Assembly (NCBI RefSeq): GCF_027257155.1
Contig: NZ_JAPWDU010000004.1
Coordinates: 248,001 to 312,000, forward strand
DNA length: 64,000 nt
Direction of reading: 5' to 3'
Source: Cerasicoccus sp. TK19100
GTDB lineage: Bacteria > Verrucomicrobiota > Verrucomicrobiia > Opitutales > Cerasicoccaceae
Shown here: positions 2,862 to 17,715 of the stretch, piece after piece
Numbering within the stretch: the stretch's first letter is position 1
Layout of the letters: every line of letters starts with the position of its first letter
Notes under the pieces: generated by a model
Databases searched by the model: none
What the model was told of the DNA's origin: nothing
The model's input: only the letters and a program-made list of their open reading frames with translations
Position numbers and translations under genes: made by a program

Positions 2862-3578
2862 CTATGGGCTATTGGGATGCGCGGGATACAGCTGACGTGC
2901 GTTTCCTCGACCAGCACCTGTGCGGCCAACTGGGCGGTTCGTAGCTTGTTTCTCCGGAAGATCAGTTTGGTAAGCCTCTACCGTCATATCCACCTTCGGC
3001 AACTTGAACAAAGTTTGGTCTTCCTGACGAACAGGCACCGATCCCGCTGAATGATGAACCACATCCCGTTCAATAGTACTGGCGGGGCGTCCGCCATTAG
3101 GGTCGAAATTTTCCAATGTGGTCGTGCCAAGATTTCGGCGAAAATTATGCCCACCGCTTCCATCGCGACGACCAACCGGGCGATTGGTAATAAACTTGTC
3201 CGGCGTCTCAAATTGATCAGCACTACCTGCAACCAGCAATGGCGAAATAACGCCTGCGATAAGGTAAGTAACACCGTAGTCAGCTGCACGAACACCAACG
3301 ATGGCGGGTAACAAAATTTTAGGGTGATCACTGTCACTACGGCCCTGTCCTGCACTGGCTCGACTGCTGGCACCCAAACCTGACAAATCTGTTCCGTCAG
3401 CAGAACGATGGGCAACATACTCATCATTATAGTTCAAGTAATCGAGGCCCTCCTTGGTGATATCCATATCAAAGACAGCACGCGGAGCCGTATCGCTTTC
3501 AGCACTGGCTTGACCAAACACAGAAAAAATTGGCAGCAAGCCCACTAATAGGACAATCAGTCGGTTGTAACGGAGCAT
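2862..3578 (-). CDS. Exported protein of unknown function with TNRPVGR repeat
   Basis: I do not recognise this 238-residue protein. It begins with a convincing signal peptide (basic start, hydrophobic core, FGQASAES cleavage region near residue 22-28). The mature part is polar and Gly/Arg/Asp rich. The heptad TNRPVGR occurs twice, near residues 130 and 213. No cysteine pairs or membrane segments follow the signal. It is the last gene of the minus-strand run and starts about 70 bases after the DUF1573 gene. A degenerate gene is possible, since the C-terminal third looks low in complexity. Confidence 0.55.
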   Translation of the reverse strand: MLRYNRLIVLLVGLLPIFSVFGQASAESDTAPRAVFDMDITKEGLDYLNYNDEYVAHRSADGTDLSGLGASSRASAGQGRSDSDHPKILLPAIVGVRAADYGVTYLIAGVISPLLVAGSADQFETPDKFITNRPVGRRDGSGGHNFRRNLGTTTLENFDPNGGRPASTIERDVVHHSAGSVPVRQEDQTLFKLPKVDMTVEAYQTDLPEKQATNRPVGRTGAGRGNARQLYPAHPNSP

Positions 3579-3648
3579 GATCTCAAAAGATGTAATTTAG
3601 GCTTGTTTCAACAAGCACAAAGGTGGCTTTGGCGGCGGGAAAATAGAA

Positions 3649-4314
3649 TTACCGGATCATTAAAAACAGATCTTTAGTAACGACAACTTCCGAGCCGCCG
3701 TCTTCGGCTTTTCGGTTGATCGAAAACTTGATATCTTCGCGAACCGGAGCGTCAGTTGAAGTGGGCGTAATTTTCAGTGTAATCTCGCTACCATCCTGTT
3801 CGATTTGAGAGATCGTAAAATTATCAGCAGATTTAGGAAATTGAACCAGTTCGAGCACATCAGACTGTTCTGCAAAAAGCTTTACGGTTTTGGGCTCAGC
3901 CGTTGAACCACTCTTCCAAAAAAGAATTCGAGGCGTTACTGACAACAACGGCTGAATGTTTGCCATCATGTCCAGTTCAATCGGATTCGAGCCGGTGTAG
4001 TTGGTGTAAACCAATATAGTTTTCTTATGGTTTCCTTCGCGATCACCGAAGGTAAAAGTAGCGGTCAAGCTTCCGGATTCACCCGGTTCGAATACCTTCT
4101 TCTCCAACGCCGCAACCGTGCAATCGCACTTCGTATTCGTTGAAACAATTTCAACTGGCTTATCACCGGTATTCTTGAACTTGAACTCAGTGATCATTTC
4201 CCTGGCCCCAATTGGAGCATCCCAGATGTCGCGTGTTTCCTCAAACTGAAGCTCAGCCTTAAGACTAGAGAATCCCAGCAGAGCTAAGAAAGTGAATTTG
4301 ATTACCTTGCTCAT
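3649..4314 (-). CDS. DUF1573-domain exported protein
   Basis: A 221-residue protein with a short signal peptide (MSKVIKFTFLALLGFSSLKA) and a DUF1573 immunoglobulin-like domain. The core shows the typical FKFKNTGDKPVEIVSTNT followed by a CDC motif (KCDCTVAAL) and GESGSLTATFTFGDREG. Such domains are common in exported proteins of Bacteroidota and Verrucomicrobiota; no enzymatic role is known. I chose the ATG at 4314, preceded by AGGA at a good distance, over an in-frame start at 4446 that would run back through the terminator and into the upstream PEP-CTERM gene. Confidence 0.85.
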   Translation of the reverse strand: MSKVIKFTFLALLGFSSLKAELQFEETRDIWDAPIGAREMITEFKFKNTGDKPVEIVSTNTKCDCTVAALEKKVFEPGESGSLTATFTFGDREGNHKKTILVYTNYTGSNPIELDMMANIQPLLSVTPRILFWKSGSTAEPKTVKLFAEQSDVLELVQFPKSADNFTISQIEQDGSEITLKITPTSTDAPVREDIKFSINRKAEDGGSEVVVTKDLFLMIR

Positions 4315-4342
4315 CTTGTTTCCTAAAGAAGTCGAAAATTGG

Positions 4343-4372
4343 AAAAAAGCGCTCCCCTGGTGGGGAGCGCTT
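4343..4372 (-). terminator. Rho-independent terminator after the PEP-CTERM gene
   Basis: On the minus strand AGCGCTCCCC and GGGGAGCGCT form a 10-base stem around a 4-base loop (4348-4371). A run of six T follows (the A run at 4343-4348 on plus). It sits 22 bases past the stop of the PEP-CTERM gene and before the DUF1573 start. Confidence 0.88.
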
Positions 4373-4393
4373 CGTAAAGATTCATGTGCGGGA

Positions 4394-5146
4394 TTAGCTG
4401 CGGCGGCGACGCATTGCTGCCAGACCGAGAACTGCGACACCAGCAATCATTGCGTACGTGGAAGGCTCAGGAACAACGATGTCACCAGTAACTTGGAAGT
4501 TGTCCAATTGCAATGAACCGAAATTGTCGATCGTGCCAAAGGTGCCACGGAGAACAACACCGTCACCGAACACAATGCCAGAGTCGAGAGTAACCGTCTC
4601 CAACTCACCGCCAGATGCTACAGTGCTGCTGGTTGTGGTCGTAACTCCAGTGGATTGAAAACCGGCACCCGAGTCGTATTCCCATGTAATGGAGATACCA
4701 TTGCCAGCGTTCGTTAGACCGGCAGCAAAGCTCAATACAACATTGTTGAATTGAGTTCCCTCGCCAGCAACGAGAACGAATGACGAATTCGATGCATTGA
4801 AGGAGAAACCATTAGCAAAACCGACTGAAGCAGCAGGAGTCAGAGACATCTGGTTGTCGATTGTGCGAGATGCGATCGTGGTGTTCTTGTTGACGTTGGT
4901 CCCATTGAAAGCAGCGCCACCGACAACACCATCAATGATATTTGTCGAGCCATTGGAGCCGTTCCAATAGATGGCACCGTTCGAATTGTTGGTGCCATCA
5001 CCAGACAAGTCTGACCAGTTAGCAGCAACGGAACCGTTGGTCGGAGCAGTGAGGTTACTCAAGTCCCAGCCAGCAATCAGCTGAGCGGCTTGAGCAGAGC
5101 CAGCAGTCGCTGCAACGACGGATGCAATTAGAATAACTTTTTTCAT
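4394..5146 (-). CDS. PEP-CTERM sorting-domain protein
   Basis: A 250-residue exported protein: signal peptide MKKVILIASVVAATAGSAQA, then a Ser/Thr/Asn/Gly-rich beta-type body, then a PEP-CTERM tail (VPEPSTYAMIAG, hydrophobic helix, MRRRRS). In known systems the tail is cut by an exosortase, and the mature protein is exported to the surface or extracellular matrix. No exosortase is in this window. It follows the beta-helix-like protein by 82 bases and has its own strong terminator, so it is probably the last highly expressed gene of the TonB-linked locus. Confidence 0.92.
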   Translation of the reverse strand: MKKVILIASVVAATAGSAQAAQLIAGWDLSNLTAPTNGSVAANWSDLSGDGTNNSNGAIYWNGSNGSTNIIDGVVGGAAFNGTNVNKNTTIASRTIDNQMSLTPAASVGFANGFSFNASNSSFVLVAGEGTQFNNVVLSFAAGLTNAGNGISITWEYDSGAGFQSTGVTTTTSSTVASGGELETVTLDSGIVFGDGVVLRGTFGTIDNFGSLQLDNFQVTGDIVVPEPSTYAMIAGVAVLGLAAMRRRRS

Positions 5147-5228
5147 ATTAATTATACTTTTAAATTGCTGACTCCAGCGCCGAAAGTGAATCCAGCGCTG
5201 GAGCGCAGCATAAATCTAAAGAATCAGA

Positions 5229-6860
5229 TTAGAGGTTTTGGCCTACAGCATTGTCGACGAGAACACCGCTGGTGTTCAGTGCGGTCCAACCGGTGGTCCA
5301 GAGAGCAGCGAAAGCATTCGGCTCGAAAGCACCTGCATAATTCACTTCGTCGAAGAACAGGTTGGTGTAAGGTACCAAGTAAGCTGCATTTTGAGCGTTG
5401 CCAGCAGGTGTCGGAACCGGGTTCAGACCGTTTGCGATGGTCTGGTTGTAGGTGCCAGGAGTCCCGAAGACACCGTAGCCAGGGTCGGCGATGGTATCAG
5501 CGCCACCGATACGATTGAGCGTGCATGCCGGGTAGCCGGTGAAGCCGCCGGGTTGGCCAGTTGCATTCAGGATGTTGGTGGTCTCAGCGGACTCACCAAC
5601 GTTAGCTGCAGTGTTGTCGCCAACGTTGAACCACATGGTGCCAGCGACACCGAAAGTTCCGGCAACCATCTGGTCATACGGAAGCTGGCTAGGGAACTGG
5701 GCGAAGGTAGCTACACCAGCCGAATCGTTGTTAACTTCGAACAGACCATTCTGGTCGGCGCGGAAGTTAGCAATGATGGAGTTGTTGAGCTGACCGCCCC
5801 AACCACGACGCATGCGAACAGCGTGACCGATCGTTTCGATTGGGTTGCCGTCACCGCTACGTGAGCCCCAGATAGTGGCATTGTAAATAGTTGGGTGAGT
5901 CGTAGGCTGAGCAGCGTCATTGAAGTTGTCGTCGTCGGAGCCGGAGTCACAGCAATCGTCACCGTCCCATTCGCAAACGTTGTCGGTGGTGATGTCGTTA
6001 TCGAGGCCGGAAGCGAGGAGGAAGGCGAACTGAATGAGGCCGGTGTAGCCTTGGTCCATGTCGAGGCCGTCATCGTCAACGTAGCTGATAGCAATATTCT
6101 TCAAAGCCGCAGTGCCACCGAAGATTTCGATACCATCGTCACCGGAGCCATAGATTTCGATGTTGGTCAGCTGAGTGCCATAACCAACGCCACCTACGGT
6201 CAGACCCTGGGTTTCAGAGTTAATTGAAGTCGCGTCACCAGAGTAGCGGATCGAAACGTAGTCGAGGATGCCGGAGCTGTCGTTCGGGATCAAGCCACCG
6301 TAAGTCGTGCGGTAGTCTTCGATAACGAAACCTTCGATGAATGCTTCACCAGATATGCCAGTGTCAACAGCACCAGTGTTGGTCGGTGCATAACCGAGGA
6401 GAACGAGCGCGCCCCAAAGGTTCACATTAGGAGCCATCGGGTTGTTCTTCGGATCGGCGTCCATAAAAGTGTCACCAGCGGTGTAACGCTCGCCGTTTAC
6501 ATCAGCAGCAGTGGTGAAGATGATCGGATTGCTGGCGGAACCGTCAGCAATGATCTCAGCGCCACGGGAAACGCAAAGAGCGCCAGGACCGTTGGTGCCA
6601 TCGCGAGGCTGGCCGCGAACCACGACACCAGGCTCAATGGTGATCGTATTGCCTGCGTTAACAAAAGTAAGACCTTCCAGGATGTAGGTGCTGTCGGCGA
6701 GTGTTGCGCCAGCGGTCAGAGTTAAATCTCCAGTGATTTCATAAACACCGGTAGATGGGTTGGTTACGACCCCGAAATTTGCGGGAGTAATTGAAGTCTG
6801 AGCAAAGGCAGCGCTTGCCGTGCCGAGACCCAATACAGTGAGGAGGGTTTGTTTATTCAT
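5229..6860 (-). CDS. Exported parallel beta-helix-like protein linked to the TonB receptor
   Basis: A 543-residue protein with a signal peptide (MNKQTLLTVLGLGTASAAFA). The body has repeats of the kind that form right-handed beta-helices: GNTITIEPGVVVRG, GAEIIADGSASNPIIFTTA, NLWGALVLLGYAPTNTG, LTNIEIYGSGDDGIEIFGG. A very acidic cysteine-bearing loop (CEWDGDDCCDSGSDDD) near residues 295-312 could bind metal. There is no PEP-CTERM tail. Proteins of this shape often sit beside TonB-dependent receptors in Bacteroidota and Proteobacteria, and the receptor gene lies 109 bases upstream. A role as surface partner of that receptor is inferred; the function is unknown. Confidence 0.75.
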   Translation of the reverse strand: MNKQTLLTVLGLGTASAAFAQTSITPANFGVVTNPSTGVYEITGDLTLTAGATLADSTYILEGLTFVNAGNTITIEPGVVVRGQPRDGTNGPGALCVSRGAEIIADGSASNPIIFTTAADVNGERYTAGDTFMDADPKNNPMAPNVNLWGALVLLGYAPTNTGAVDTGISGEAFIEGFVIEDYRTTYGGLIPNDSSGILDYVSIRYSGDATSINSETQGLTVGGVGYGTQLTNIEIYGSGDDGIEIFGGTAALKNIAISYVDDDGLDMDQGYTGLIQFAFLLASGLDNDITTDNVCEWDGDDCCDSGSDDDNFNDAAQPTTHPTIYNATIWGSRSGDGNPIETIGHAVRMRRGWGGQLNNSIIANFRADQNGLFEVNNDSAGVATFAQFPSQLPYDQMVAGTFGVAGTMWFNVGDNTAANVGESAETTNILNATGQPGGFTGYPACTLNRIGGADTIADPGYGVFGTPGTYNQTIANGLNPVPTPAGNAQNAAYLVPYTNLFFDEVNYAGAFEPNAFAALWTTGWTALNTSGVLVDNAVGQNL

Positions 6861-6969
6861 TTATAGATGATGTGACTATAGTTAGGAGAGAAAGCTCAAT
6901 TCTAGAGCCTAATTGAATCAACATGAAGGCTGTCAGGTTACATTCGTGTAAAATGGCAGCCGGAGACCC

Positions 6970-9900
6970 CTAAAAGTTGTAATCCAAGGCAACTCGGTAA
7001 TTCTGCCCGACCTTATAGCTCAGGCGATCAATCGTCTCATCGACAAAATCATTCGAATAGTAGATTGAGCGCTTCGTATCGGTAATATTGCTTACCGCAA
7101 ATTTAAGAGTCAGGTTTTCTGTAATTCGTTGCTGGAAAGTCAGATCCAACTGATAGTATGATCCAGTGAATTGGTCTACGGAGCCATTACTACCGGAGCC
7201 AACGCCGGTCAGCACGTCACTCTGAGAGAACACTGAAAGCGTCAATGTCGTCCCCAAATCCGGGTGCGAAAATGTGACATCCGCATTCACGATCCACTCT
7301 GGCTGGTCAAACAGACGTCGGTCTTGCGGCTGTCGGTTGTTACCATTGGGAGGGCCATCGTTGCCCACAAACGGACCACTCGGAATCCCGTTCGATGTGT
7401 ATCGGAAGTATGACTGCCAAACTGATTCCGGGTAGGCAACCGTGGCGTCAATCATTGTCCAATTAGCGCCAATGGAGACATACTTAAGATCCTTAAAAAA
7501 GTTAGACAGACTCGTTCTGGTCTCCAGCTCAAACCCCTTCACGATTGCGCGATCAGGATTATTAATGAACGACAGGAAATCGACATTACCGGGGGCTCTT
7601 AAAAGAACTCGCTCAATCGGATTCTCGACATTCTTATAAAAGACACTGGCAGCGATCAGGTCGCCATCTCCAAACCGATATTCCAAACGCGCATCATAAC
7701 TCTCGACCGGGCTCAGTTCCAACGTCGGGTTACCAATAATCAGGTCTCCCGTTTCCAGCTCGGTAGAAAAATACGGAGCCATTTCGCGGAACGACGGGCG
7801 GGCAATCGTTTTGCTGTAGCCTGCACGGAAAGTGATATCATCCGTAATATCATAGGTCATTGAAACGCCCGGCAACACTGCGTCACTTCGGATATCCCCC
7901 TGCTCATTAGGATTGGTCCATCCCAAGACCTCGCCGTTGGTGGTCGGACCTGTGAAGCCAGGAGGAGGCGTTTCCAAGCCTGGCAAAGGCGTATTGAGAA
8001 TCTGATCCAGTGTATAAATACCAAGTTCAGCGTCACCGTTCGCCGTCATTCTAAGATCTTCAAAACGAGCGCCACCAGTAAACTTAAGATTATCAAAGAC
8101 CGGCAAGGTTAGCATTCCGTAAAATGCGTTAATCTTTCGGGTGTTATTGGCGAAAGAAGTATTGGTACCCAAATTGGTGTTATTCGCCGCATCAATGTTT
8201 CGCACGAGCGCGTACTGCAACTCTTCTGGTGTTTGAAATACTGCAGGCTCCCCTCCCGTCTTAGGTATGTTGTTGTTCGAGGGATAAATAAGCTCGATTT
8301 GGTCGGTTCGGCGGCTGGCATTTTCGTAATACATGCCGGAACGGATTTGACCATCCAAGTTATTGAGGAACTCAAGCTCATAGGTTAAATCAGCCCTGGC
8401 ACCGTAGACATCCTCGTCGATATCCCGCCAGGTTTGTGTCAATGGGCTGATGCCAGATACCACGTTGTCGGGAAGCCAATAACCTTCAGCATCAGGGGTA
8501 TTACTTCCTGGATAGGCACTGCCATCATCGATTTGATAAGCATACTCAAATGTCGTTTGTCCCGGCGTGTCGCTGCTGGTAGTCGCATAGGAAGCGCCCC
8601 AAAATATTTCCAAGTCATTCAACTCCTCAATCAAGTGCTCACCGTTGAGCTGATAAGCTTTAAGATTACGCTCTTCGTAAGAGATTGTATCCTTATTGAA
8701 AAGCTGATTGCCATCATCTTGCTGCCCAACGAGGACGAATCCATCCGCCTGAGAATTGGAAGTTAAGTCGGTAACCTGATTCCCGGTTTGGCGAAATTGG
8801 GGAGGTAAGCTGCCATTACTTTTTCGCTGCACAAAATCCTGAGAATTTTGACTGAATAGGTAGTTGAAGGACAACTGGTTTGTGCCTTCCGGATCAAGAT
8901 CAAAGGCAAAGCCACCCAGAGCAGCAATTTGGACAGTACCTATCGAATTTTCGACGTCATACCTCACGTCACTGGCAGCCAGTTCACGGTTATATAAAGA
9001 ACCGGGGATGAACTCCTTCAAGTTCGCATTAAACCGAGCCAGGAATCTGTCATAAAGCGGAGTCCCAGGCGGAAAGGGAATAACTTCGCTCTCGAACCCT
9101 GGGACAGCATTACCCACACTGTAGCTGCTCGCGCCATAGCGATCCTGCTGAACGCCAAACTGAGTTTTGTAGCTGCTGTCATAGGACGCAGAAGCGATCA
9201 CCCCCAAGTTGCGACCAAAAACCTTGGTTGTATCACCAAATCCCAAAGAAAATTTACCACCCACGGGCGCATTGCCGGGCTGAGCAATAAAAGTTGGGCT
9301 GGGCAGATTCAGCTGGTTCGCCCTGGATCTGCTGGTGCCGGGGTTCATGGGGCGGCTCCCTTTGCCAAACCCGAACAAGTCATCGGTGGAGCTGTTGGGA
9401 TCCCTCAGATAGGAGTCCATGGCATTGCTGTTAAAACGAGCGCCAGCACTAAACCAAGTGGTAAACTCTTCCGGATAAGCCTTGGTGTTGAGCTCGAAAG
9501 CCGCACCCGAAGAGTTACTTGGCATGTAGGGCAGAAACTGCTTGTTCGTAACAACGCTGTCGATGATCGAAGTGGGGAATAAGTCCAGTTGCAACCCTTG
9601 GCGCAAGGGGTCAGGACTGGGCACCGGAAGGCCATTGACCAAAGTACTGTTATAGCGATCGCTCAAACCGCGAACTACGGCGAACTTGCCCTCCACCACG
9701 TTGACGCCCGGCAGGCGCTTTACCACGTCGGCCAAGTCGGTTGCTGCATACTTGGAAAAGTCTTCCGAGGTAAGAAAATCCATTGAGCCCGCGGAGTCCC
9801 GTCGAAGATCATCCATCGCGATTCGGGAGTCGGTAACAAGCTCGCCTCCCGCAGCGAATTCTTCTAATTGGAAGACCTCTCCGGCTTGTTCCGCAGCAGT

Positions 9901-10392
9901 CAAGGAAGTGAGCTGCACATTGACCCGATTGGCGGAATTCGCCAGCACCTCAAAGTCCTTCACTTCCTCTTCCTTGTAGCCATCTTCAACAACGAGGATA
10001 GTGTAAAAGCCAGCTGGGATATCCGTAAAGCGGAACTCCCCCTCTTTGTTGGTCACCGTCTTTTCCTGCGGCTCGTAATCATCTGCCTCTGCGGCTGCTT
10101 CGGCACCTGGCCAAAGCAACACTACATTTGCGCCACGCACAAACTTACGCTTCTCTGGATCAAAGACTTGGCCAATGATATTACCGACCCCTGCGGATTC
10201 TCCCGTGTAAGGCGCAGGTGCAGCAGGCTGCTTAGCATCAACGACCTCGACATCGTTGAAAGGTTGATCCTCAGTTTCGCTGGCTTCCGTCCCCTGCGAA
10301 TAAGCCGCAATAGGTGCCAGCAGAATTCCCCAACACGCGAGTGTCGTCAAACAAAGTAGCTGTCTGTTAAAAATAGAGTTAAATCGCTTCAT
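6970..10392 (-). CDS. TonB-dependent outer-membrane receptor with carboxypeptidase-regulatory-like N-domain
   Basis: An 1140-residue receptor. After a signal peptide ending near residue 33 there is a carboxypeptidase-D regulatory-like domain at about 70-165 (GNIIGQVFDP, EGEFRFTDIPAGFYTILVVEDG). The plug domain follows at about 190-310 (DLADVVKRLPGVNVVEG, VVRGLSDRYNSTLVNGLPV). The rest is a long beta-barrel ending in the outer-membrane signature YRVALDYNF with a terminal Phe. The ligand is unknown. Its ATG overlaps the stop of the preceding gene by 4 bases, and the TonB-ExbBD genes lie upstream in the same run, so this is likely a receptor with its own energising complex. Confidence 0.93.
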   Translation of the reverse strand: MKRFNSIFNRQLLCLTTLACWGILLAPIAAYSQGTEASETEDQPFNDVEVVDAKQPAAPAPYTGESAGVGNIIGQVFDPEKRKFVRGANVVLLWPGAEAAAEADDYEPQEKTVTNKEGEFRFTDIPAGFYTILVVEDGYKEEEVKDFEVLANSANRVNVQLTSLTAAEQAGEVFQLEEFAAGGELVTDSRIAMDDLRRDSAGSMDFLTSEDFSKYAATDLADVVKRLPGVNVVEGKFAVVRGLSDRYNSTLVNGLPVPSPDPLRQGLQLDLFPTSIIDSVVTNKQFLPYMPSNSSGAAFELNTKAYPEEFTTWFSAGARFNSNAMDSYLRDPNSSTDDLFGFGKGSRPMNPGTSRSRANQLNLPSPTFIAQPGNAPVGGKFSLGFGDTTKVFGRNLGVIASASYDSSYKTQFGVQQDRYGASSYSVGNAVPGFESEVIPFPPGTPLYDRFLARFNANLKEFIPGSLYNRELAASDVRYDVENSIGTVQIAALGGFAFDLDPEGTNQLSFNYLFSQNSQDFVQRKSNGSLPPQFRQTGNQVTDLTSNSQADGFVLVGQQDDGNQLFNKDTISYEERNLKAYQLNGEHLIEELNDLEIFWGASYATTSSDTPGQTTFEYAYQIDDGSAYPGSNTPDAEGYWLPDNVVSGISPLTQTWRDIDEDVYGARADLTYELEFLNNLDGQIRSGMYYENASRRTDQIELIYPSNNNIPKTGGEPAVFQTPEELQYALVRNIDAANNTNLGTNTSFANNTRKINAFYGMLTLPVFDNLKFTGGARFEDLRMTANGDAELGIYTLDQILNTPLPGLETPPPGFTGPTTNGEVLGWTNPNEQGDIRSDAVLPGVSMTYDITDDITFRAGYSKTIARPSFREMAPYFSTELETGDLIIGNPTLELSPVESYDARLEYRFGDGDLIAASVFYKNVENPIERVLLRAPGNVDFLSFINNPDRAIVKGFELETRTSLSNFFKDLKYVSIGANWTMIDATVAYPESVWQSYFRYTSNGIPSGPFVGNDGPPNGNNRQPQDRRLFDQPEWIVNADVTFSHPDLGTTLTLSVFSQSDVLTGVGSGSNGSVDQFTGSYYQLDLTFQQRITENLTLKFAVSNITDTKRSIYYSNDFVDETIDRLSYKVGQNYRVALDYNF

Positions 10393-11192
10393 TGAGCATT
10401 AGAAAGAGTTTTCCGGATATCCGCATCTTGGGATATTCCGCGTTGTAGCTCAGAAAATTTGGCATCCAAATCGTCGCCGTTTTCCAACTTGATGGGGTCG
10501 ACAACCGTGCGACCATTCTTATCGATCACTGCCATCATGGCACCCTCGGGTTCGTGGTTGAGGATCGTCCGATAGGGCTTGGCCAAGGGATAAACCAGAG
10601 TCAGGCCCGGGTATTCGTAAGCAATGAGCTCCAACAGGTAATCCTGAACATTGTGCTCATCCGGAATCAGCATGAGGCAGACATTCGATGGCAATTCATT
10701 GATGCCTTTTGAATCACGCATCCAAGACAAAATCTGCTGTCCCTCGTCCGATGAATGATCGAGATAGAAAATCAGGAAGTAGTCCTTATCGTCATATACT
10801 TTAATCGGAAGCGTCTGGAATCCGGTTGGCTTCGCCGCCATCAGCTTAGTATGGAACTGAGCAGTCCAGTTTCCGAGATGTCCCCAATCACGCACACCAC
10901 GAAGTTCCTTCGAACGATCCACGAAATCAGTCTGGGCAATCGGAAGTTGGATGACGCCGTAGCGACCAAAGTCAATGAGTACATCGTCACCGACCAGACG
11001 CACGACGAAGCCCAAACGACCAGGCTTAATTGTTTGGCCGTTCAAGGTTTCTTCGACGGGCTCATTCACCGTGACGCGATCTGGCCACCATTCAGACCGA
11101 ACTTGCAGCTCGGCGTTTGCTGGTTCTACGTCGGCGCTCACTGCACAGACTGCGCCGAGTAAAACTAAAATACTCAATATACTTTGCTTCAT
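10389..11192 (-). CDS. Exported protein of unknown function in the TonB locus
   Basis: I do not recognise this 267-residue protein. It starts with a signal peptide (MKQSILSILVLLGAVCAVSA). The mature chain is mixed alpha/beta with hydrophobic strands such as KDYFLIFYLDHSSDEG, NVCLMLIPDEHN and AMMAVIDKNGRTV, which is loosely like a thioredoxin fold but without a CxxC. It overlaps the next gene (the receptor) by 4 bases and the previous gene's stop by 4 bases, so translation of the three is probably coupled. A periplasmic or surface accessory to the receptor is the simplest inference. Confidence 0.7.
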   Translation of the reverse strand: MKQSILSILVLLGAVCAVSADVEPANAELQVRSEWWPDRVTVNEPVEETLNGQTIKPGRLGFVVRLVGDDVLIDFGRYGVIQLPIAQTDFVDRSKELRGVRDWGHLGNWTAQFHTKLMAAKPTGFQTLPIKVYDDKDYFLIFYLDHSSDEGQQILSWMRDSKGINELPSNVCLMLIPDEHNVQDYLLELIAYEYPGLTLVYPLAKPYRTILNHEPEGAMMAVIDKNGRTVVDPIKLENGDDLDAKFSELQRGISQDADIRKTLSNAQ

Positions 11193-11857
11193 AACGATTC
11201 CGCTTGGCGCTGGCCAACCGTGTTGTTTTCAGAATTTATGACTTTTTCCTTTTTCGTGAGCGCAGTAGAATTCAGTGGCAGCATGGAAGGTCTTGGAGGT
11301 TGAACGGTAGCTGGTCTGGCCAGTAGCTGGTCTCGGATTTCATCCGTTTCGCCAACAACCAGTGTTTCGCCTGCGCGGGATGAGAGCGCGCGGCGTCCCC
11401 CTGGGTGTTGCTCCGTCACTGGCTCCTCACTCGCCTTCCCCACAACAATGCCACCAACTGTTGGTTCGGTTTCAATCTGCGGAACCAACGCGTTGTTGGC
11501 ACTTCGTGGTAAGGAGCGCGGTTTACGTTCCACCACCGGCTCTCGATCAACAAAGCTCATACCAATCTCCGTAGGTTTTTCCAAACGCAGCACATGCTTC
11601 TGACCTTCGGCAAATACAACGGCTTCTCGCGAATTCGGCCTCCACTCAGAGGCATAAATCAGTCGGTTCTCCGTCTCGCCTACGGGCAGAACTTTGGTGG
11701 TTCCTGACGGCGACCGCACCGTGGCAAACACTTGGTCATCAATGCGCGTGACTCCCTGTAGCGTGTAAGCTTGTGCCAGCAGACCAGAACATGCCGCCGT
11801 CATTCCCAATAGAATAACGCTGCCTTTGCTGATCCAACTATGCACGAGGTTAAACAT
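11189..11857 (-). CDS. Exported protein of unknown function in the TonB locus
   Basis: A 222-residue protein that I cannot assign. The first 30 residues form a signal peptide with a somewhat long N-region. Residues 30-95 look like a small beta domain (YTLQGVTRIDDQVFATV, TTKVLPVGETENRLIYASEW). The remainder is low in hydrophobic residues and probably disordered. It starts 7 bases after the TPR gene and overlaps the following gene by 4 bases. A periplasmic linker or scaffold for the TonB complex is possible but unsupported. Confidence 0.65.
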   Translation of the reverse strand: MFNLVHSWISKGSVILLGMTAACSGLLAQAYTLQGVTRIDDQVFATVRSPSGTTKVLPVGETENRLIYASEWRPNSREAVVFAEGQKHVLRLEKPTEIGMSFVDREPVVERKPRSLPRSANNALVPQIETEPTVGGIVVGKASEEPVTEQHPGGRRALSSRAGETLVVGETDEIRDQLLARPATVQPPRPSMLPLNSTALTKKEKVINSENNTVGQRQAESL

Positions 11858-11864
11858 AAAGCTC

Positions 11865-13256
11865 CTAGCGGTTTACCGCGCGCTCAAGCTGTGCGAGGTA
11901 ACGCTCGATGCGCGGCTCTTCCTTGATGCTCAAGGCGCGCTTAAGCAGGATAATTGCGTCGTGGTATTTACGCTTATTCGCCAGCATTTGCGCGTGCTTG
12001 ACTAACGCCTGGTATTCGAACTCCTCAATGGATTCAGCCAGTTCGATGTAATAAATGGCGCGTTCCAGGTCTTCGGCTTCCGCCGATTTGCTGTAGAAAT
12101 CCGCCAGTTCGATCAGAGCCTCCCCGTTAGTGCCGTCACGCTTAACGATATCCTTTAGAATCGCAATGGCCTGCACTTCATCACCCAATGAACGGGCATT
12201 TTTAGCCTGAAGCGTGAGCACCGTAAGCTCCTGCTCAGTCGTGAGCATGCCAGCATACTGGCTCTTAACTTTTTCCAGTAACTCCGTGGATTCCTCAGCA
12301 GCACCGATTTGCTGCAGGAGACGGGCGGCGCGTATTGCGCTCGGATAGCCCGCAGAAGTTTTATCGTTGCCGATTGCCGACTCATAAACTTCCAGTGCTG
12401 CCTCGGGCATCTGCATATTCAGGTAGATATCGCCGAGCAACAAAAGCGACTCGCGCTTGGCCGTGCCCAGCGAACGAACTGCCTCCAGATTAATAGCGGC
12501 TTCCATGGGCTTTCCCTGCCCCAGGTAGGCATTAGCTTGGAGCATCCAAAGCATGGAGTTATTCGGCTGCTGCTTGATCAATGTATCAAACAAAGAGACC
12601 GCCTCGTTATAGCGTTCTGTCGCCAAGAGAGTGCGCGCCAGGCCTAACTGCCAGTCGACCACATCCGGCTCTTGTTGAATGGCGTCACGATAGGCTTCTT
12701 CGGCAGCAAGGTAGTTGTCCGTGCTCAAGTAAGCATAGCCGATCAATCCGTTGGTACGACCATCGTGTTCGCCCAACTCCGATGCGCGGCCGAGATGCTT
12801 TTGTGCATTGGCAAAGTCCTGATCCTGCAGATAGAGCAGCCCGATGTTCTTATGTGCGCGAAGAAACGACGGGTGCTTCTCAATGGCCATCAAGTAATAC
12901 TTCTGCGCCTCTTCAAGCTTGCCCTGTTGGAAATACAAATTGCCCAGAATGAAGATCAAGGCGGCGCTGCTGTTGTCATTGATCTTTAGCTTCAACTGTT
13001 CGGCCGCAGCGTCGGGATCGGCCTTCATGATTTCGATCAAATCACCGAGCACGACGATCTCTTCCTGGTTCACTTTCGGCTCCAATGAAGGCATGAAACC
13101 ATAGCTGCCCAAAAAGCGCTTCTGCCACTCAGGATCATCCATCACCTTGGGAGCCTCTAGCATGAGGTCGGTCTTCGACTGCGCCGCGAGCGGCAGCGCC
13201 ATGGCAAAACCAGCAGCCAGCAATGCGGTGTACTTTTTCATGTTTGAATAATTCAT
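11865..13256 (-). CDS. Exported TPR protein of the TonB operon
   Basis: A 463-residue protein with a signal peptide (MKKYTALLAAGFAMALPLAA after a 5-residue lead) followed by a solenoid of tetratricopeptide repeats from about residue 85 to the end, for example YYLMAIEKHPSFLRAHKNIG and YLSTDNYLAAEEAYRDAI. In TonB2-type clusters of Vibrio and relatives a TPR gene follows tonB and is thought to help the complex. I kept the ATG at 13256 because it overlaps the tonB stop by 4 bases; the ATG at 13241 is an alternative that gives a tidier signal peptide. Confidence 0.88.
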   Translation of the reverse strand: MNYSNMKKYTALLAAGFAMALPLAAQSKTDLMLEAPKVMDDPEWQKRFLGSYGFMPSLEPKVNQEEIVVLGDLIEIMKADPDAAAEQLKLKINDNSSAALIFILGNLYFQQGKLEEAQKYYLMAIEKHPSFLRAHKNIGLLYLQDQDFANAQKHLGRASELGEHDGRTNGLIGYAYLSTDNYLAAEEAYRDAIQQEPDVVDWQLGLARTLLATERYNEAVSLFDTLIKQQPNNSMLWMLQANAYLGQGKPMEAAINLEAVRSLGTAKRESLLLLGDIYLNMQMPEAALEVYESAIGNDKTSAGYPSAIRAARLLQQIGAAEESTELLEKVKSQYAGMLTTEQELTVLTLQAKNARSLGDEVQAIAILKDIVKRDGTNGEALIELADFYSKSAEAEDLERAIYYIELAESIEEFEYQALVKHAQMLANKRKYHDAIILLKRALSIKEEPRIERYLAQLERAVNR

Positions 13257-13924
13257 TGGATATTTATCGGAATTGGCAGGTTCGCTTTAGCCTTCACCTT
13301 GCGGCCTTGGAAAGTGGGCGCAGAAAACTTGCGCCGGCTGATTTCCTTGAGAACAAAATCATTGAATTGTGGCAGATCGGATTTGGATACTTCCGCCTTG
13401 GTCACGTTGCCTTCTTCGTCCAGCTCGATGTAAACCACGACGCGACCGGAAACTTTCTTTGTGCGCAGGCTGCGCGGATAATTGAAAGCGCTTTGGTCAA
13501 TCAGTTTCGGCGGCTCATCCAGCTCGGAGAAGTCGATGAAATCTTCCGTGCCCAGATCACCGGCATTAGCGGCAGTCGTCGGCAGCGCGAAGTCGCCGGC
13601 CAAGCTACCACCGGTGCCTGGATTCAGCACCAGGTCCATCTGCTCCAGTGAAAGGTCGGGCGGTGGCTCCTCCATCTCGGGTGGCGGCTCTTCCTCCGGT
13701 GGCTCTTCCGGTTCTGGTTCTTCGATCTCCTCGAACTCCGGCGGCGGGAACGCTACCATCACTTCCTGCAGGTCGTTCTGCGGCGGCTTGATGTTTCCCA
13801 CCAGTGGCGCAATGGCCATCAATACAAACAGGAAGGTGGAAAACAGTACGCCACACGTCATACCAAGAGGCAGGTCTGTTTTGGCGGTGGGAATTTTAAA
13901 ACTTTGATGCTTACGATCAGACAT
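13253..13924 (-). CDS. tonB: TonB-like energy transducer
   Basis: A 223-residue inner-membrane protein. A cytoplasmic N-terminus is followed by one membrane helix (about 20-42) and an acidic Pro/Glu-rich periplasmic linker near 60-95 (EEPEPEEPPEEEPPPEMEEP). The C-terminal TonB domain covers about 145-222 (SGRVVVYIELDEEGNVTKAE, FSAPTFQGRKVKAKANLPI). TonB passes proton-motive energy from ExbBD to outer-membrane receptors. The linker is Glu-Pro rather than the Lys-Pro common in classical TonB, as in short TonB2-type proteins. It lies 3 bases after the second ExbD gene and overlaps the TPR gene. Confidence 0.9.
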   Translation of the reverse strand: MSDRKHQSFKIPTAKTDLPLGMTCGVLFSTFLFVLMAIAPLVGNIKPPQNDLQEVMVAFPPPEFEEIEEPEPEEPPEEEPPPEMEEPPPDLSLEQMDLVLNPGTGGSLAGDFALPTTAANAGDLGTEDFIDFSELDEPPKLIDQSAFNYPRSLRTKKVSGRVVVYIELDEEGNVTKAEVSKSDLPQFNDFVLKEISRRKFSAPTFQGRKVKAKANLPIPINIQ

Positions 13925-13927
13925 GGA

Positions 13928-14329
13928 TCAGCCCCTGAAAGTTGAAACGCTAATTTTCTTGGCACCGGCATTTTTCACTTCGCTATAAACTTTGGAAAAA
14001 GTGCCGTGCTCTGCGTTTATGTCCGCCTGGATGATCACCGGTAAATCGTTCTGTTTGATCTGCTGCTTGACTTGCGATGCGACCCCGGAAACGCCGATTT
14101 CCTTACCGCCATAAACAACGCGGTTATCGGAAGTGATCGCGATGATGATACTATTCTTCTCCAAGTCAGCATCGGTAACCGCATTCGGCTTGATGATTTC
14201 AACACCCGGCTCCTCGACGAAAACGGTCGTCACAATGAAGAAGATCAGCAGAATGAAAATACAGTCGATCATGGGAGACAGATTGATCTCTGTTTCCTGA
14301 TCCGGCTCGTCGTTGATGCTGCGTCCCAT
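13928..14329 (-). CDS. exbD: ExbD/TolR-family protein (second copy)
   Basis: A 133-residue protein with the standard plan of a short cytoplasmic lead ([20 protein letters not shown]), one membrane helix containing the conserved Asp (PMIDCIF), and a periplasmic ExbD domain with [12 protein letters not shown] near residue 104. With ExbB it forms the proton-driven motor. It is 6 bases downstream of another exbD; the helices of the two are nearly identical while the periplasmic parts differ, which suggests a hetero-oligomer or receptor-specific subunits. Confidence 0.92.
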
Positions 14330-14335
14330 AGAAAA

Positions 14336-14743
14336 TTAGTTGGTCGTGGTGTAGCTCAGTTGGTTGGCACCGGCTTGCGAAGCCTCGTCCCACACCGAGA
14401 TGAAGAGACCGTGGCTCGCGCGTTCATGGCTGCGGATCATTACGGGCGTATCCGCATCGACCATGCCGTCCTTGACGCGGTTTTTCACTTGGCTCAGCGG
14501 AATCTCCTGCCCATCGATCATGATTTTATTATTGGCGGTAATCTCCAGGGCGACCGATACACTGTCGTCGTTGTTGGCCGAGGCGGCGGCGGCGTCCGGC
14601 TTGTTCACCTGAAGTCCGCTTTCCTCGACAAAGACAGTCGTCACGATGAAGAAAATCAGCAGGATGAAGATACAATCGATCATCGAAGACAGGTTGATCT
14701 CAGTCGCCTCTTCCCCCTCTGCAAGTATGCTGCGCTTGGCCAT
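14336..14743 (-). CDS. exbD: ExbD/TolR-family protein (first copy)
   Basis: A 135-residue ExbD with [20 protein letters not shown] carrying the proton-path Asp, followed by a periplasmic domain (MIDGQEIPLSQVKNRVKDGM, VMIRSHERASHGLFISVWDE). The gene begins 1 base after the short exbB stop. It was presumably duplicated to give the adjacent exbD, since the membrane segment is almost the same at DNA level. Confidence 0.92.
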   Translation of the reverse strand: MAKRSILAEGEEATEINLSSMIDCIFILLIFFIVTTVFVEESGLQVNKPDAAAASANNDDSVSVALEITANNKIMIDGQEIPLSQVKNRVKDGMVDADTPVMIRSHERASHGLFISVWDEASQAGANQLSYTTTN

Positions 14744-14744
14744 A

Positions 14745-15341
14745 TTAGTCGATTTTTAGCTGGCTGAGAGTCAAGCACTCCAGCCGGGTGATATTGGCTT
14801 CCAGCCCGTGCTTTTGCCGTTGAATAATCATGACGATGAATAGACCAGGCAGGGCGATGATCAGACCGGTCAGCGTGGTCAAGAGCGCTTCAGAAATACC
14901 CGATGCCACCACACCAGCCGTCTCACCGCCTCCGCTAGTGGCCAAGCCAAGAAACGTTTGCAACATACCAATGACCGTCCCCAACAGCCCGAGTAGAGGA
15001 GCCGTTGCGACCAGCGTATTAACAAAGCGAACACGCCGGTCCACGAGATTGAGCGTGGCCATGCGCACTTCATCAAAACGGTTGCGTACCTGCTTGGCTG
15101 AGCTGGTGTCAGTTTGCGTGTAGCGGATAATTTCCGCAACGCGCCCTTCCGCCTTCTCGGGGGATTGCACCCACTGCGCCCATTGAAACTCGTTGCGCTT
15201 ATTCAAGCTGGTGCGGCGAACGTAGAATATAAGCTGGAACGCCTGAGTGTAGAGCAAGCATGCGAGGAAAAACAGCGGATACATCACCGTCCCACCGCTT
15301 GCCCATACATCAAAAATTTTCTCTAGCGTGACACCTTCCAT
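14745..15341 (-). CDS. exbB: MotA/TolQ/ExbB proton channel protein, short form
   Basis: A 198-residue protein with three membrane segments (about 20-40, 108-130, 150-172). It has the family core VATAPLLGLLGTVIGMLQTF and GISEALLTTLTGLIIALP. It should form the pentameric ExbB channel around ExbD. It lacks the long periplasmic N-terminal region seen in the neighbouring ExbB, so the operon encodes one short and one long version, as in TonB2 / TtpC clusters. Confidence 0.93.
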   Translation of the reverse strand: MEGVTLEKIFDVWASGGTVMYPLFFLACLLYTQAFQLIFYVRRTSLNKRNEFQWAQWVQSPEKAEGRVAEIIRYTQTDTSSAKQVRNRFDEVRMATLNLVDRRVRFVNTLVATAPLLGLLGTVIGMLQTFLGLATSGGGETAGVVASGISEALLTTLTGLIIALPGLFIVMIIQRQKHGLEANITRLECLTLSQLKID

Positions 15342-15370
15342 GGTGGTCGTCCTGAATAAAGATTTAGAAA

Positions 15371-16777
15371 TTAGTCCTTCTTTTCGTGACGACGGCTGAT
15401 CACCCCGTTCACGAAGGCAACGGCACCTTGCTCCAGCAGACCCAGCTTACGCTTGGCCATGCGTGAAAGCATGCCGTGAAGAATCAAAGTAGGAATGGCC
15501 ACGATCAGACCCAGTGCGGTGGTAACGAGCGCTTCGGAAATACCCGAAGAAAGGCTCTTGGCGTCACCCGTGCCAAAGATCGTAATCAATTGGAAAGTCT
15601 TAATCATACCGATAACGGTACCCAGCAGACCCAACAGCGGAGCCGCTGCGGCGGTGATCGCGAGAAACGGCAAAAAACGCTCCAGATAAGGACGGGCCTT
15701 CAGGATTCGCTCGAACATCATTTCTTCGAGAATACCGCGCTTTTCCTCGGCGTTAATCACACCAGCAGCCAACATTTCACCAGCAGTGCCACCAATTTCG
15801 TTGGCCTTTTCCTGCGCCTTGTCCTGCTTGCCTTCGTTTACCAGATCGAGCAGCTCGTCGATCTGCTTAGGCATGGCAACCTTGAAGCTGAAGATTTCAA
15901 AGCACTTAAAGACCGCCAGCAAAATGGCGATAATGCCCAGGCCGATAATGACGTAACCAACCTGGCCGCCGTCCTCAACGTAGGCCATCAGAGATTTCTT
16001 GGCCTTGGCGACCTTGATTGCCTTACCCAGAGTTGCATCAAAGGGAAGCGCACCTGAGCCGGTCGAAACCGCATTAGAAATGCTTCCACTGATCGTTTCC
16101 GGTAAAGCGACGACTACCGGATCAGCCGCATTGAGCTGAGTTTCGACCAAGCCGTAGACACTTTTATCATTGCTCGTAAAGAAAACCGTCGGGCCAAACT
16201 TGGCAAACGTGCCTTCTTGCAGCACGCCTTCCGGGCTCAGCGCGGCACCCTCAAAAGTGTGGCCGCCAACGAGGTTTTCCATGCGATCCATGGCGGATTC
16301 CACCACGGCTACCTGCAAATCACGCTTTTCCTCCGGGCTCAAGTTTGCGTTCTTGGGTGCAAGCTTGGCGTCCTTAATATCAGCAGCATAGAGAGGATTC
16401 TCGGCCTTATCGATGCGTTGCTCAAAGCCTTCGATAAACTCATTGAGCAAACGGTTCACGAAATCTGACTGCTCCTGCAACTGGCTCACCTGGCGTTCCA
16501 GTGAGGATAAATCGATCGTGCGGCTGTCCTTGATCTTCAGCAAGCGATTGTGCTCACGGCGCAACTCGGTCGCCTGGCTTTCCAACTCGGCAACTTCCGT
16601 CGATAGCGGGACCCGCTCCTCTTGAATCGTCTCACGGACATCCGCAAGTTTCTTCAGGGATGCTTCCAACTTTGCGTCAACGTCGCTCGAAACTTGATCA
16701 AAATTCTGGGCACCCAGTGGCAGTGCCAGCGCGCCAGCGATCGTCAGCAAGGAAGTATAAGTGATAATCCGTTTCAT
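15371..16777 (-). CDS. Long ExbB/TolQ-family protein with periplasmic coiled coil (TtpC-like)
   Basis: A 468-residue protein. It has a signal peptide (to about residue 23), then a predicted coiled coil at about 25-125 rich in Glu/Arg/Leu, then a beta-rich periplasmic part (GTFAKFGPTVFFTSNDKSVY). A membrane helix lies at about 270-290, and the C-terminus is a MotA/TolQ/ExbB channel domain (ITAAAAPLLGLLGTVIGMIK, SSGISEALVTTALGLIVAIP). This matches the layout of TtpC, an extra ExbB-like component required by the Vibrio TonB2 system. It starts 23 bases after the DUF3450 gene. The assignment to that role is by architecture and context. Confidence 0.88.
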   Translation of the reverse strand: MKRIITYTSLLTIAGALALPLGAQNFDQVSSDVDAKLEASLKKLADVRETIQEERVPLSTEVAELESQATELRREHNRLLKIKDSRTIDLSSLERQVSQLQEQSDFVNRLLNEFIEGFEQRIDKAENPLYAADIKDAKLAPKNANLSPEEKRDLQVAVVESAMDRMENLVGGHTFEGAALSPEGVLQEGTFAKFGPTVFFTSNDKSVYGLVETQLNAADPVVVALPETISGSISNAVSTGSGALPFDATLGKAIKVAKAKKSLMAYVEDGGQVGYVIIGLGIIAILLAVFKCFEIFSFKVAMPKQIDELLDLVNEGKQDKAQEKANEIGGTAGEMLAAGVINAEEKRGILEEMMFERILKARPYLERFLPFLAITAAAAPLLGLLGTVIGMIKTFQLITIFGTGDAKSLSSGISEALVTTALGLIVAIPTLILHGMLSRMAKRKLGLLEQGAVAFVNGVISRRHEKKD

Positions 16778-16800
16778 GTTAAAAATAGTAAAATTGCTCG

Positions 16801-17562
16801 TTACTGGACGCTGATGGGGAGCGCGACGAATTCGATCACATCAGTGTTGCCTTCATACATGTCGATGAAGCGCTTGGCGTCCGCCGCCAGTTCCTTATTC
16901 TCAGTCCACACCCAGCCATCGCTGGTCGGCTTACCGAAGCCAGCCGTCTTGCCCTGGGAGTCCACGTAAATGGCGAATGACATGCCCCAATAGACTGTTT
17001 TGACCTGGATTTTCTGGCCGCCCACTTCACGCGTCTCGCCAACAAAGGTCGCGGTGCTATTAAACTTCTCCGCCTGATTAAGGATCGCGAGAACCTGGCC
17101 CATGCGCTTGCCCAGCGTAGCATCCGACTCTTCGGGATTCTCTGGGATCTGGACGATCAGCGGCTCGAGCTTGGCCTTAAGCGGTTCCGGGAAAATCTTC
17201 ACCAACTCCAGTATTTGCTTCTCCAGCGTTGCGACCTGTTGGGCCAATGCGATATCAGCGATCTGCAATTGGTCTTTCTTGTCGAGCAGCTCCTTGCGCG
17301 ATTGGTCGCTGGCGGTTTCCTCGGACTTCAGCTCTTTGACCTGTTCATCCAGCGCCTTTACCTGATTGCTCAGCAGGTCTCTCGTGGCGATCAGCAGCTC
17401 CTTGTCTGCCTCCCAATCAGTGACTTCCTTGGAAATCATCTGGCGAGTCTCGACCCACTTGGCGAGCTTCTCCTTCGCGACGGAAGGGTCGCTCTGAGCG
17501 GAGAGTGATGTCCAACCAAGACAGCAGGCAATAAGTGTGTTTGCGATGACGCGAATCTTCAT
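16801..17562 (-). CDS. DUF3450 periplasmic coiled-coil protein, first gene of TonB locus
   Basis: A 253-residue exported protein: signal peptide to about residue 22, then a long coiled coil (about 25-120), then a C-terminal beta-type region (VYWGMSFAIYVDSQGKTAG, WVWTENKELAADAKRFIDMY). DUF3450 genes regularly precede the TtpC-like exbB in TonB2-type clusters, as here. Its coiled coil probably pairs with that of the long ExbB next door (inference). It is the promoter-proximal gene, and the 293 bases upstream hold operator-like sequences. Confidence 0.86.
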   Translation of the reverse strand: MKIRVIANTLIACCLGWTSLSAQSDPSVAKEKLAKWVETRQMISKEVTDWEADKELLIATRDLLSNQVKALDEQVKELKSEETASDQSRKELLDKKDQLQIADIALAQQVATLEKQILELVKIFPEPLKAKLEPLIVQIPENPEESDATLGKRMGQVLAILNQAEKFNSTATFVGETREVGGQKIQVKTVYWGMSFAIYVDSQGKTAGFGKPTSDGWVWTENKELAADAKRFIDMYEGNTDVIEFVALPISVQ

Positions 17563-17642: not shown

Positions 17643-17715
17643 GTCACATATTACAGTTGGGTTACGACTCCGTAACCCGCGCGTCACATTGCGATTTTGC
17701 ATTCATAAATGTGAC
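17643..17715. promoter_or_regulatory. Operator-like cluster upstream of the TonB locus
   Basis: The gap between the DUF3450 gene and the EF-hand gene contains a perfect 8-base inverted repeat, GGGTTACG / CGTAACCC, at 17659-17678. It is flanked by three copies of GTCACAT in either orientation (17643-17649, 17683-17689, and reverse at 17709-17715). No gene is seen between 17563 and 17855. The arrangement resembles binding sites for a dimeric regulator; the regulator is unknown. Confidence 0.4.

Follow-up and report, generated by a model that had tools for sequence, protein, structure and literature searches.

The window analysed here is a 64,000-nt stretch of the genome of Cerasicoccus sp. TK19100 (family Cerasicoccaceae, order Opitutales; the host family and host order below). 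The subject of this work is a run of 14 minus-strand open reading frames (ORFs) at 2862-17562, in which the genes of a TonB motor are followed by those of two exported proteins (UNK2 and UNK1), a TonB-dependent receptor, a right-handed parallel β-helix protein and a PEP-CTERM protein (Table 1). The ORF translations, together with Pfam and NCBIfam, bear out the families that an initial annotation of this DNA had named in the run. The β-helix protein, UNK1, UNK2 and the protein at 2862-3578 have no Pfam family, and for the first of these the assignment is backed by a structural model and a fold comparison. The 4-base gene overlaps that the annotation had described as several number three (10389-10392, 11189-11192 and 13253-13256), and the terminator that it placed after the PEP-CTERM gene is present as a perfect stem; the listing of a consensus terminator scan does not include it. 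Since this stem lies directly 3′ of the PEP-CTERM gene, the likely transcription unit runs from 17562 down to 4394 and comprises 12 genes. For the DUF1573 gene, ATG 4314 is a more probable start than the listed TTG 4446, which places the gene past the terminator. Rfam gave no RNA-element match in the window.

Table 1. Features of the gene run and its flanks, in order of transcription from the predicted promoter.
Feature	Position	Strand	Basis
Pho-box-like sites	17649..17687	17651-17666 (-), 17671-17686 (+)	direct repeats, period 11
DUF3450 protein, TtpB-like, first gene of unit	16801..17562	-	Pfam PF11932, E 9e-29
Long ExbB, TtpC-like	15371..16777	-	MotA_ExbB, E 5e-28; N-terminal DUF3450 weak, below cut-off
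Short ExbB	14745..15341	-	Pfam MotA_ExbB, E 8e-23
ExbD copy 1	14336..14743	-	Pfam ExbD, E 3e-26
ExbD copy 2	13928..14329	-	Pfam ExbD, E 5e-28
TonB	13253..13924	-	Pfam TonB_C, E 8e-10
TPR protein, TtpD-like	11865..13256	-	Pfam TPR families; position as described for ttpD2 in V. vulnificus (PMC6957404)
UNK2, exported	11189..11857	-	conserved short domain at the N-terminus, tail of low complexity; family alignment
UNK1, exported	10389..11192	-	N-terminal domain conserved; C-terminal domain thioredoxin-like, lacking CXXC
TonB-dependent receptor, N-terminal carboxypeptidase-regulatory-like domain	6970..10392	-	Pfam PF13620, PF07715, PF00593
ElpS-family right-handed parallel β-helix protein	5229..6860	-	homology to Sphingomonas ElpS-position protein; model and fold comparison
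PEP-CTERM protein	4394..5146	-	Pfam PF07589, NCBIfam TIGR02595, above cut-off
Terminator-like stem closing unit	4347..4372	-	11-bp perfect inverted repeat, 4-nt loop, T6
DUF1573 exported protein, past terminator, membership uncertain	3649..4314	-	Pfam PF07610, E 2e-19
Exported protein of unknown kind, past terminator, membership uncertain	2862..3578	-	matches no family

Both members of the receptor and β-helix pair have homologs at an elpS-type locus of Sphingomonas: the β-helix protein aligns with the protein in the ElpS position (hhalign probability 100, E 1e-42) and the receptor with the receptor of that locus (probability 100, E 1e-60). The receptor is also homologous to that of an Alteromonas locus described below. 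The Sphingomonas pair stands ahead of type II secretion system (T2SS) genes, as described for elpS (PMC2996285), and it is through this pair, not through the Caulobacter sequences themselves, that we liken the window proteins to ElpS (CC0170) and CC0171 of Caulobacter crescentus. ElpS is made under phosphate starvation, and the order β-helix, receptor, T2SS is known for elpS-cc0171 in both Caulobacter and Sphingomonas alaskensis (PMC2996285). As these proteins are described, they share with our locus the tandem β-helix and receptor genes, a surface or secreted partner and the phosphate-starvation setting, whereas ElpS is a lipoprotein encoded beside a T2SS cluster, the window β-helix protein lacks a lipobox and the window locus adds a motor, a PEP-CTERM protein, UNK1 and UNK2. 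A further likeness, drawn from published description, is with FI, FII and FIII and the TonB-dependent transporters (TBDTs; PUSIII/PUSIV) of Flavobacterium johnsoniae. Phosphate depletion strongly induces FI, FII and FIII, whose sequences have been linked to ElpS; FI and FII adjoin induced TBDTs with a regulatory-like domain, and FII lies in the phoBR cluster (PMC8115612). These three are lipoproteins, and the available part of that account names for them no dedicated motor, PEP-CTERM protein or UNK1/UNK2 (PMC8115612). Several TonB receptors, along with the T2SS, belong to the PhoB regulon in Caulobacter (PMC11208175). The SusCD/PusCD systems of Bacteroidota are alike in their TonB-dependent receptor with a regulatory-like N-terminal domain and an adjoining gene for a surface partner, but in the window that partner is a β-helix protein, and a Pfam scan of the run matched none of its genes to a SusD family.

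The model of the β-helix protein, built from 36 sequences, has a pTM of 0.86 and a mean pLDDT of 80, and its best fold matches (Z up to 20.3) are right-handed β-helix tailspikes, lyases and epimerases; such likeness of fold is no indication of function. Foldseek alone returned no match for the model at E ≤0.001, and by sequence no solved structural relative was found at E up to 1. The protein has an N-terminal signal, and the signal region contains no cysteine. Given that it has no lipobox, we regard it as a relative of ElpS of a different protein type, which would be retained at the surface by other means, perhaps via the receptor. Invariant acidic residues in the alignment (D241/D242/E245 and D263/D264/D267) recur at a spacing of 22, which matches stacked turns of the helix, and this row could bind calcium.

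The motor genes stand in the order DUF3450 (TtpB), long ExbB (TtpC), ExbB, ExbD, TonB and TPR (TtpD), from which we infer a motor of the Ttp/TonB2 kind; that it would drive the receptor encoded behind it is our proposal from the gene architecture. In Vibrio vulnificus, ttpB2 comes first, ahead of ttpC2, and ttpD2 last, behind tonB2 (PMC6957404). The TonB2 system described there (TtpB-TtpC-ExbB-ExbD-TonB-TtpD) is alike in gene content and order, and the window locus differs from it in having two ExbD genes, in holding the receptor group in the same unit and in showing no sign of iron control that we could find. A second Ttp motor is encoded on contig C6 of the source genome (our locus L090, 8762-13873); it is more diverged, with no ElpS-type receptor group in the 20 kb examined.

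The sites before the DUF3450 gene are direct repeats with a period of 11, the architecture of the Pho box in E. coli, and from this predicted Pho-box-like promoter the unit may be under PhoB control. A strict form of the repeat, YGTAACNNNNNYGTMA, is present in 7 of the 11 receptor-linked motor promoters (which supplied the pattern, so that this count is not independent), in two of five pstS promoters, in none of three promoters of second-PstS-type genes, in one of two receptor promoters, in none of 19 other motor promoters and in 9 of 4000 random 250-bp stretches. The 19 include L066, whose motor is divergent from a receptor group, so that strictly motor-only loci number 18. Two tests do not depend on the sites that defined the pattern. 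The first, a search of the whole source genome (5.07 Mb), gave nine strict matches. Two are the DUF3450 promoter of the locus, one lies about 150 bp before the phoB-phoR pair (the best NCBIfam match of this PhoB is TIGR02154, at 251 bits, below the cut-off of 296) and one about 0.5 kb ahead of a two-gene unit, the last gene of which encodes a second PstS-family protein. For the second test we built a matrix from seven motor sites and applied it to 16 phoB promoters outside the training set; the phoB upstream sequences had been viewed before the matrix was built, though none was used in it, and pattern matches at other receptors had also been viewed. The median score was 14.0 at the phoB promoters and 5.2 at 73 intergenic control stretches (p 1.7e-5). 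Scores were 13.2 at twelve other receptor promoters (p 2.9e-4; ten from other families of the host order, one from a second copy in the host family and one from a named metagenome-assembled genome (MAG)), 11.3 at six pst promoters (p 0.005) and 4.8 at the 19 other motor promoters (p 0.8). An earlier comparison of the motor-only set with random, mostly coding stretches (p 0.03) is superseded by the intergenic one. At periods of 8-10 or 12-14 instead of 11, the phoB median was 5.5-7.2 and that of the controls 4.1-6.0. In one linked locus (L055) the DUF3450 start was guessed, an antisense ORF being called there. Period-11 repeats are thus common to this unit and phoB promoters of the same genomes, the pst promoters being mixed and other families weak.

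Relatives of the pair in named genomes point in the same direction. Taking the best 80 of at least 564 β-helix loci, the hosts include Bacteroidetes, Verrucomicrobia, Latescibacterota, Zixiibacteriota and Chitinivibrionales (an order of Fibrobacterota), as well as the gammaproteobacteria Salinimonas, Methylophaga, Zhongshania and Marinobacter. An Alteromonas macleodii plasmid carries, in a row, phoB, phoR, a phosphate-binding protein gene (pstS), an oxygenase, the β-helix gene, the receptor and a complete motor; the Salinimonas chromosome has phoB, phoR, a PstS-like gene, β-helix, receptor and motor, with no oxygenase; and in a Chitinivibrionales MAG the row is receptor, β-helix, two genes, motor, PstB (TIGR00972, above cut-off), one gene and PhoU. 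At least one match to the profiles for PstS, PstC, PhoU, Pit or OprO/P occurs in 21 of the best 80 named loci, and PhoR and PhoB occur together in five more. The same profiles match in 0 of the 18 motor loci of the host order that lack a receptor-β-helix pair, a contrast that sets many phyla against one order and that shrinks within the host order to 5 of 16 against 0 of 18. The 16 are receptor loci outside the host family (one of them, L256, is cut ahead of its receptor), and the five with phosphate genes or a PhoB-PhoR pair are L063, L065, L077, L255 and L257. L063 and L257 bring together motor, receptor, β-helix, PEP-CTERM, UNK1, UNK2, a porin that is OprO/P-like by profile, and PstS, and in L065 the receptor group neighbours a PhoB-PhoR pair; a search with the PhoR of the source genome retrieves the PhoR of that pair. 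Matches to PstB, and to PhoB or PhoR singly, were not counted because their profiles are not specific, matching further ABC ATPases and regulators as well; such a PstB match occurs in 2 of the 18 motor-only loci (L081 and L090).

Based on these observations, we consider it probable that the locus is a single PhoB-controlled unit for TonB-driven uptake of scarce phosphorus across the outer membrane, probably in organic form. TonB systems are known to serve the uptake of iron, B12 and sugars, and porins are generally regarded as the route of phosphate through the outer membrane. Because free phosphate passes porins, a phosphorus-bearing polymer or large ester would suit a TonB receptor better. 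In our model, PhoB would, on phosphate starvation, occupy the 11-bp-period repeats upstream of the DUF3450 gene. The β-helix protein at the surface would then capture a phosphorus-bearing ligand too large for porins, for which our guess is a phosphorylated polymer or phosphoester-rich organic matter, and hand it over to the receptor, which the locus's own Ttp-type motor would energise. An exosortase may sort the PEP-CTERM protein to the envelope or surface, and UNK1 and UNK2 may be periplasmic or surface accessories. Phosphate freed in the periplasm would finally move inward via PstSCAB, which the source genome encodes. More tentatively, and with somewhat less conviction than doubt, we suggest that the Ttp motor is dedicated to phosphorus: PhoB-controlled, with an ElpS-family receptor as its sole client and with two new fixed parts, the exosortase-sorted PEP-CTERM protein and a thioredoxin-like protein that is redox-dead. 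The pairing of motor and receptor recurs in the host order, in Alteromonadales and in Fibrobacterota. The initial annotation had seen in this locus a possible undescribed import or surface-assembly system. Import is the better supported of the two, and the phosphate link is an addition to that reading; wholly undescribed the system is not, as the ElpS/CC0171 pair (PMC2996285, PMC8115612) and the Ttp/TonB2 motor (PMC6957404) have been described and the individual parts belong to known kinds. TBDTs induced when phosphate is depleted have been reported before (PMC8115612, PMC11208175). The combination, in one Pho-type unit, of a Ttp motor and an ElpS-type pair with a PEP-CTERM protein and a thioredoxin-like protein devoid of the cysteines was not found among the records listed in searches of the open literature. 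By joining receptor, partner, motor and Pho-type promoter in one unit, the locus bears on how phosphate-induced TBDTs are energised and on the role of their highly expressed β-helix partners, a question that is open to test by a few deletions.

Several observations weigh against the phosphorus reading. The repeat (CGTAACC-N4-TGTAATA-like) was first noticed by eye before DUF3450, pst and some receptor genes, a first look that took in three receptor and five pst promoters. In 4 of the 11 linked motor, 3 of the 5 pstS and all 3 second-PstS-type promoters the strict pattern does not occur. Of its genomic matches, three lie inside called ORFs and two are intergenic with no evident phosphate gene. 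With nine matches against 24 for a reversed-pattern control it is not over-represented genome-wide, so that the match count shows no excess and only the places of the matches do. Two loose matches were seen in the window, a number equalled in 13 of 100 shuffles. Even at periods other than 11 the phoB set lies slightly above the controls (p 0.005-0.11). At six later promoters from other families the matrix score was slightly raised (p 0.02), with none of the six above the 95th percentile of 82 controls, a set that differs from the 73 by the genes excluded; in this later set two PstS promoters scored 14.3 and 13.8, and a site just before a β-helix gene 18.6. Neither the scanned window genes (65-22994) nor the examined flanks of the nine other family loci include a pst or pho gene, and pho genes lie near in one (Alteromonas) of the four Alteromonadales plasmid loci inspected, out of 13 matching records; the other three, Pseudoalteromonas plasmids, carry motor, β-helix and receptor with no pho genes nearby. 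As to the known relatives, deletion of ElpS left phosphatase activity unchanged, an effect being seen with overexpression, and cc0171 showed no phosphate induction by RT-PCR (PMC2996285), while the best-studied relatives of the motor, in Vibrio, serve iron and siderophore uptake (PMC6957404).

Could the motor and the receptor group simply be neighbours, a general-purpose TonB motor beside an independent receptor cluster with no functional dependence? We think this unlikely, although it is the alternative that survives best. The initial annotation had proposed that gene order be compared in relatives and had regarded motor genes without this receptor group as evidence against its single system; such motors do occur in relatives, L090 of the source genome among them. 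In other families of the host order, motors are found without the receptor group and receptor-β-helix pairs without a motor, and alphaproteobacterial pairs adjoin T2SS genes instead, as on Sphingomonas and Indioceanicola plasmids, where the β-helix gene and receptor are followed by T2SS genes. Within the host family, however, the joint locus is kept: among 10 genomes, the source genome included, all 10 hold motor, receptor and β-helix within about 10 kb in one order and one direction, and eight of them hold UNK1 together with the UNK2-position and PEP-CTERM genes, which are missing from G004 and G006. Some motor genes in L054, L055, L058 and L059 are masked by wrong ORF calls, and there the motor was recognised by its long-ExbB matches. 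The recurrence in one locus that the initial annotation asked about also extends to other families of the host order, to all four inspected Alteromonadales plasmid loci, to Salinimonas and to the Chitinivibrionales MAG, and the Pho-like repeat stands before 7 of the 11 linked motors and none of the 19 others, with the dependence of that count on its training promoters noted above. Since related genomes hold either part without the other, motor and receptor group are modules, and in the host family they are modules kept together.

UNK1 is a good tag for the receptor module. A search of 177 genomes of the host order gave a match at E ≤0.001 in 23. We inspected six further loci with E below 1e-15, together with one of the weaker matches, in the source genome, that turned out to be a WCPPC-bearing thioredoxin-like protein. 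Five of the six loci cluster UNK1 with receptor and β-helix; the contig of the remaining one starts at the PEP-CTERM gene, which adjoins UNK1, UNK2 and a motor. UNK2 is present in four of the six and a motor in two (L256 and L257).

A further possibility is that the receptor works outwards, as a TonB-driven machine that exports or assembles the β-helix or PEP-CTERM protein at the surface; TonB-driven secretion has reportedly been proposed for Oar and PopC in Myxococcus. The close association of the two genes fits such a role, as the receptor lies within two genes of the β-helix gene, on either strand, in 58 of the 78 loci, among the best 80, in which the ORF caller recovered the β-helix on the plus strand, and so does the window β-helix protein, whose N-terminal signal without a lipobox leaves its hold at the surface unexplained. 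Yet no receptor lies within two genes in 16 of the 78 (four more end at a contig edge), and on a Marinobacter plasmid neither receptor nor motor is near the β-helix gene. Moreover, ElpS is described as a surface lipoprotein that is exposed without the T2SS, and deletion of cc0171 leaves its production intact (PMC2996285). We accordingly regard secretion as improbable. Least probable of all is an iron or siderophore importer, in which the receptor would take a ferric chelate, the motor would work as in Vibrio TonB2 and the phosphate link would be incidental: the best-studied motor relatives are indeed needed for siderophore uptake (PMC6957404), but the receptor accompanies an ElpS-family protein and in some loci pst/pho genes, the promoter resembles the phoB promoter, and no Fur-box match was found in the window at ≤3 mismatches (a weak test against a consensus sequence, for which none was expected by chance).

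Returning to the phosphorus reading, its less familiar components deserve comment. The C-terminal half of UNK1 aligns with the WCPPC thioredoxin-like protein of the source genome (hhalign probability 95.5, E 1.4e-8), and opposite WCPPC both cysteines are missing, so that a thioredoxin-like domain is present without its CXXC. Low-confidence strands suggest that the small conserved N-terminal domain is an SH3-like barrel; because the model of UNK1 itself is too poor (mean pLDDT 55), no fold search was made with it. For UNK2, Pfam gave nothing useful, and a GspC/PilP-like domain was considered and dropped, as its hhalign probability against the protein in the GspC position of L173 was 0.1. The PEP-CTERM protein ends in a VPEP, transmembrane and Arg sorting signal, and the source genome has five exosortase-family matches.

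Some minor observations concern related loci. In L066 (9461-16559, genome G047) two tandem receptors are each preceded by the same promoter repeat, TGTCACCAAAACGTCACG. The ElpS-family proteins of Alteromonas (L171, 8486-12556) and Pseudoalteromonas (L172, 7073-11161) are about 1350 aa long and extend far beyond the β-helix match. In the pst operon of the source genome (L193, 4237-8552, contig C3), PstC (777 aa) and PstA (660 aa) are unusually long, with the permease domain at the C-terminus, and their lengths are similar in G001-G003. The gene upstream of the second PstS-family protein (L208, 1102-3048, contig C5) encodes a 648-aa protein with C-terminal PvdO/GldK matches below cut-off. Finally, the exported protein at 2862-3578 contains two copies of a TNRPVGR-like motif, and its sole homolog in the 40 loci compared lies in the equivalent place in G002 (L053).

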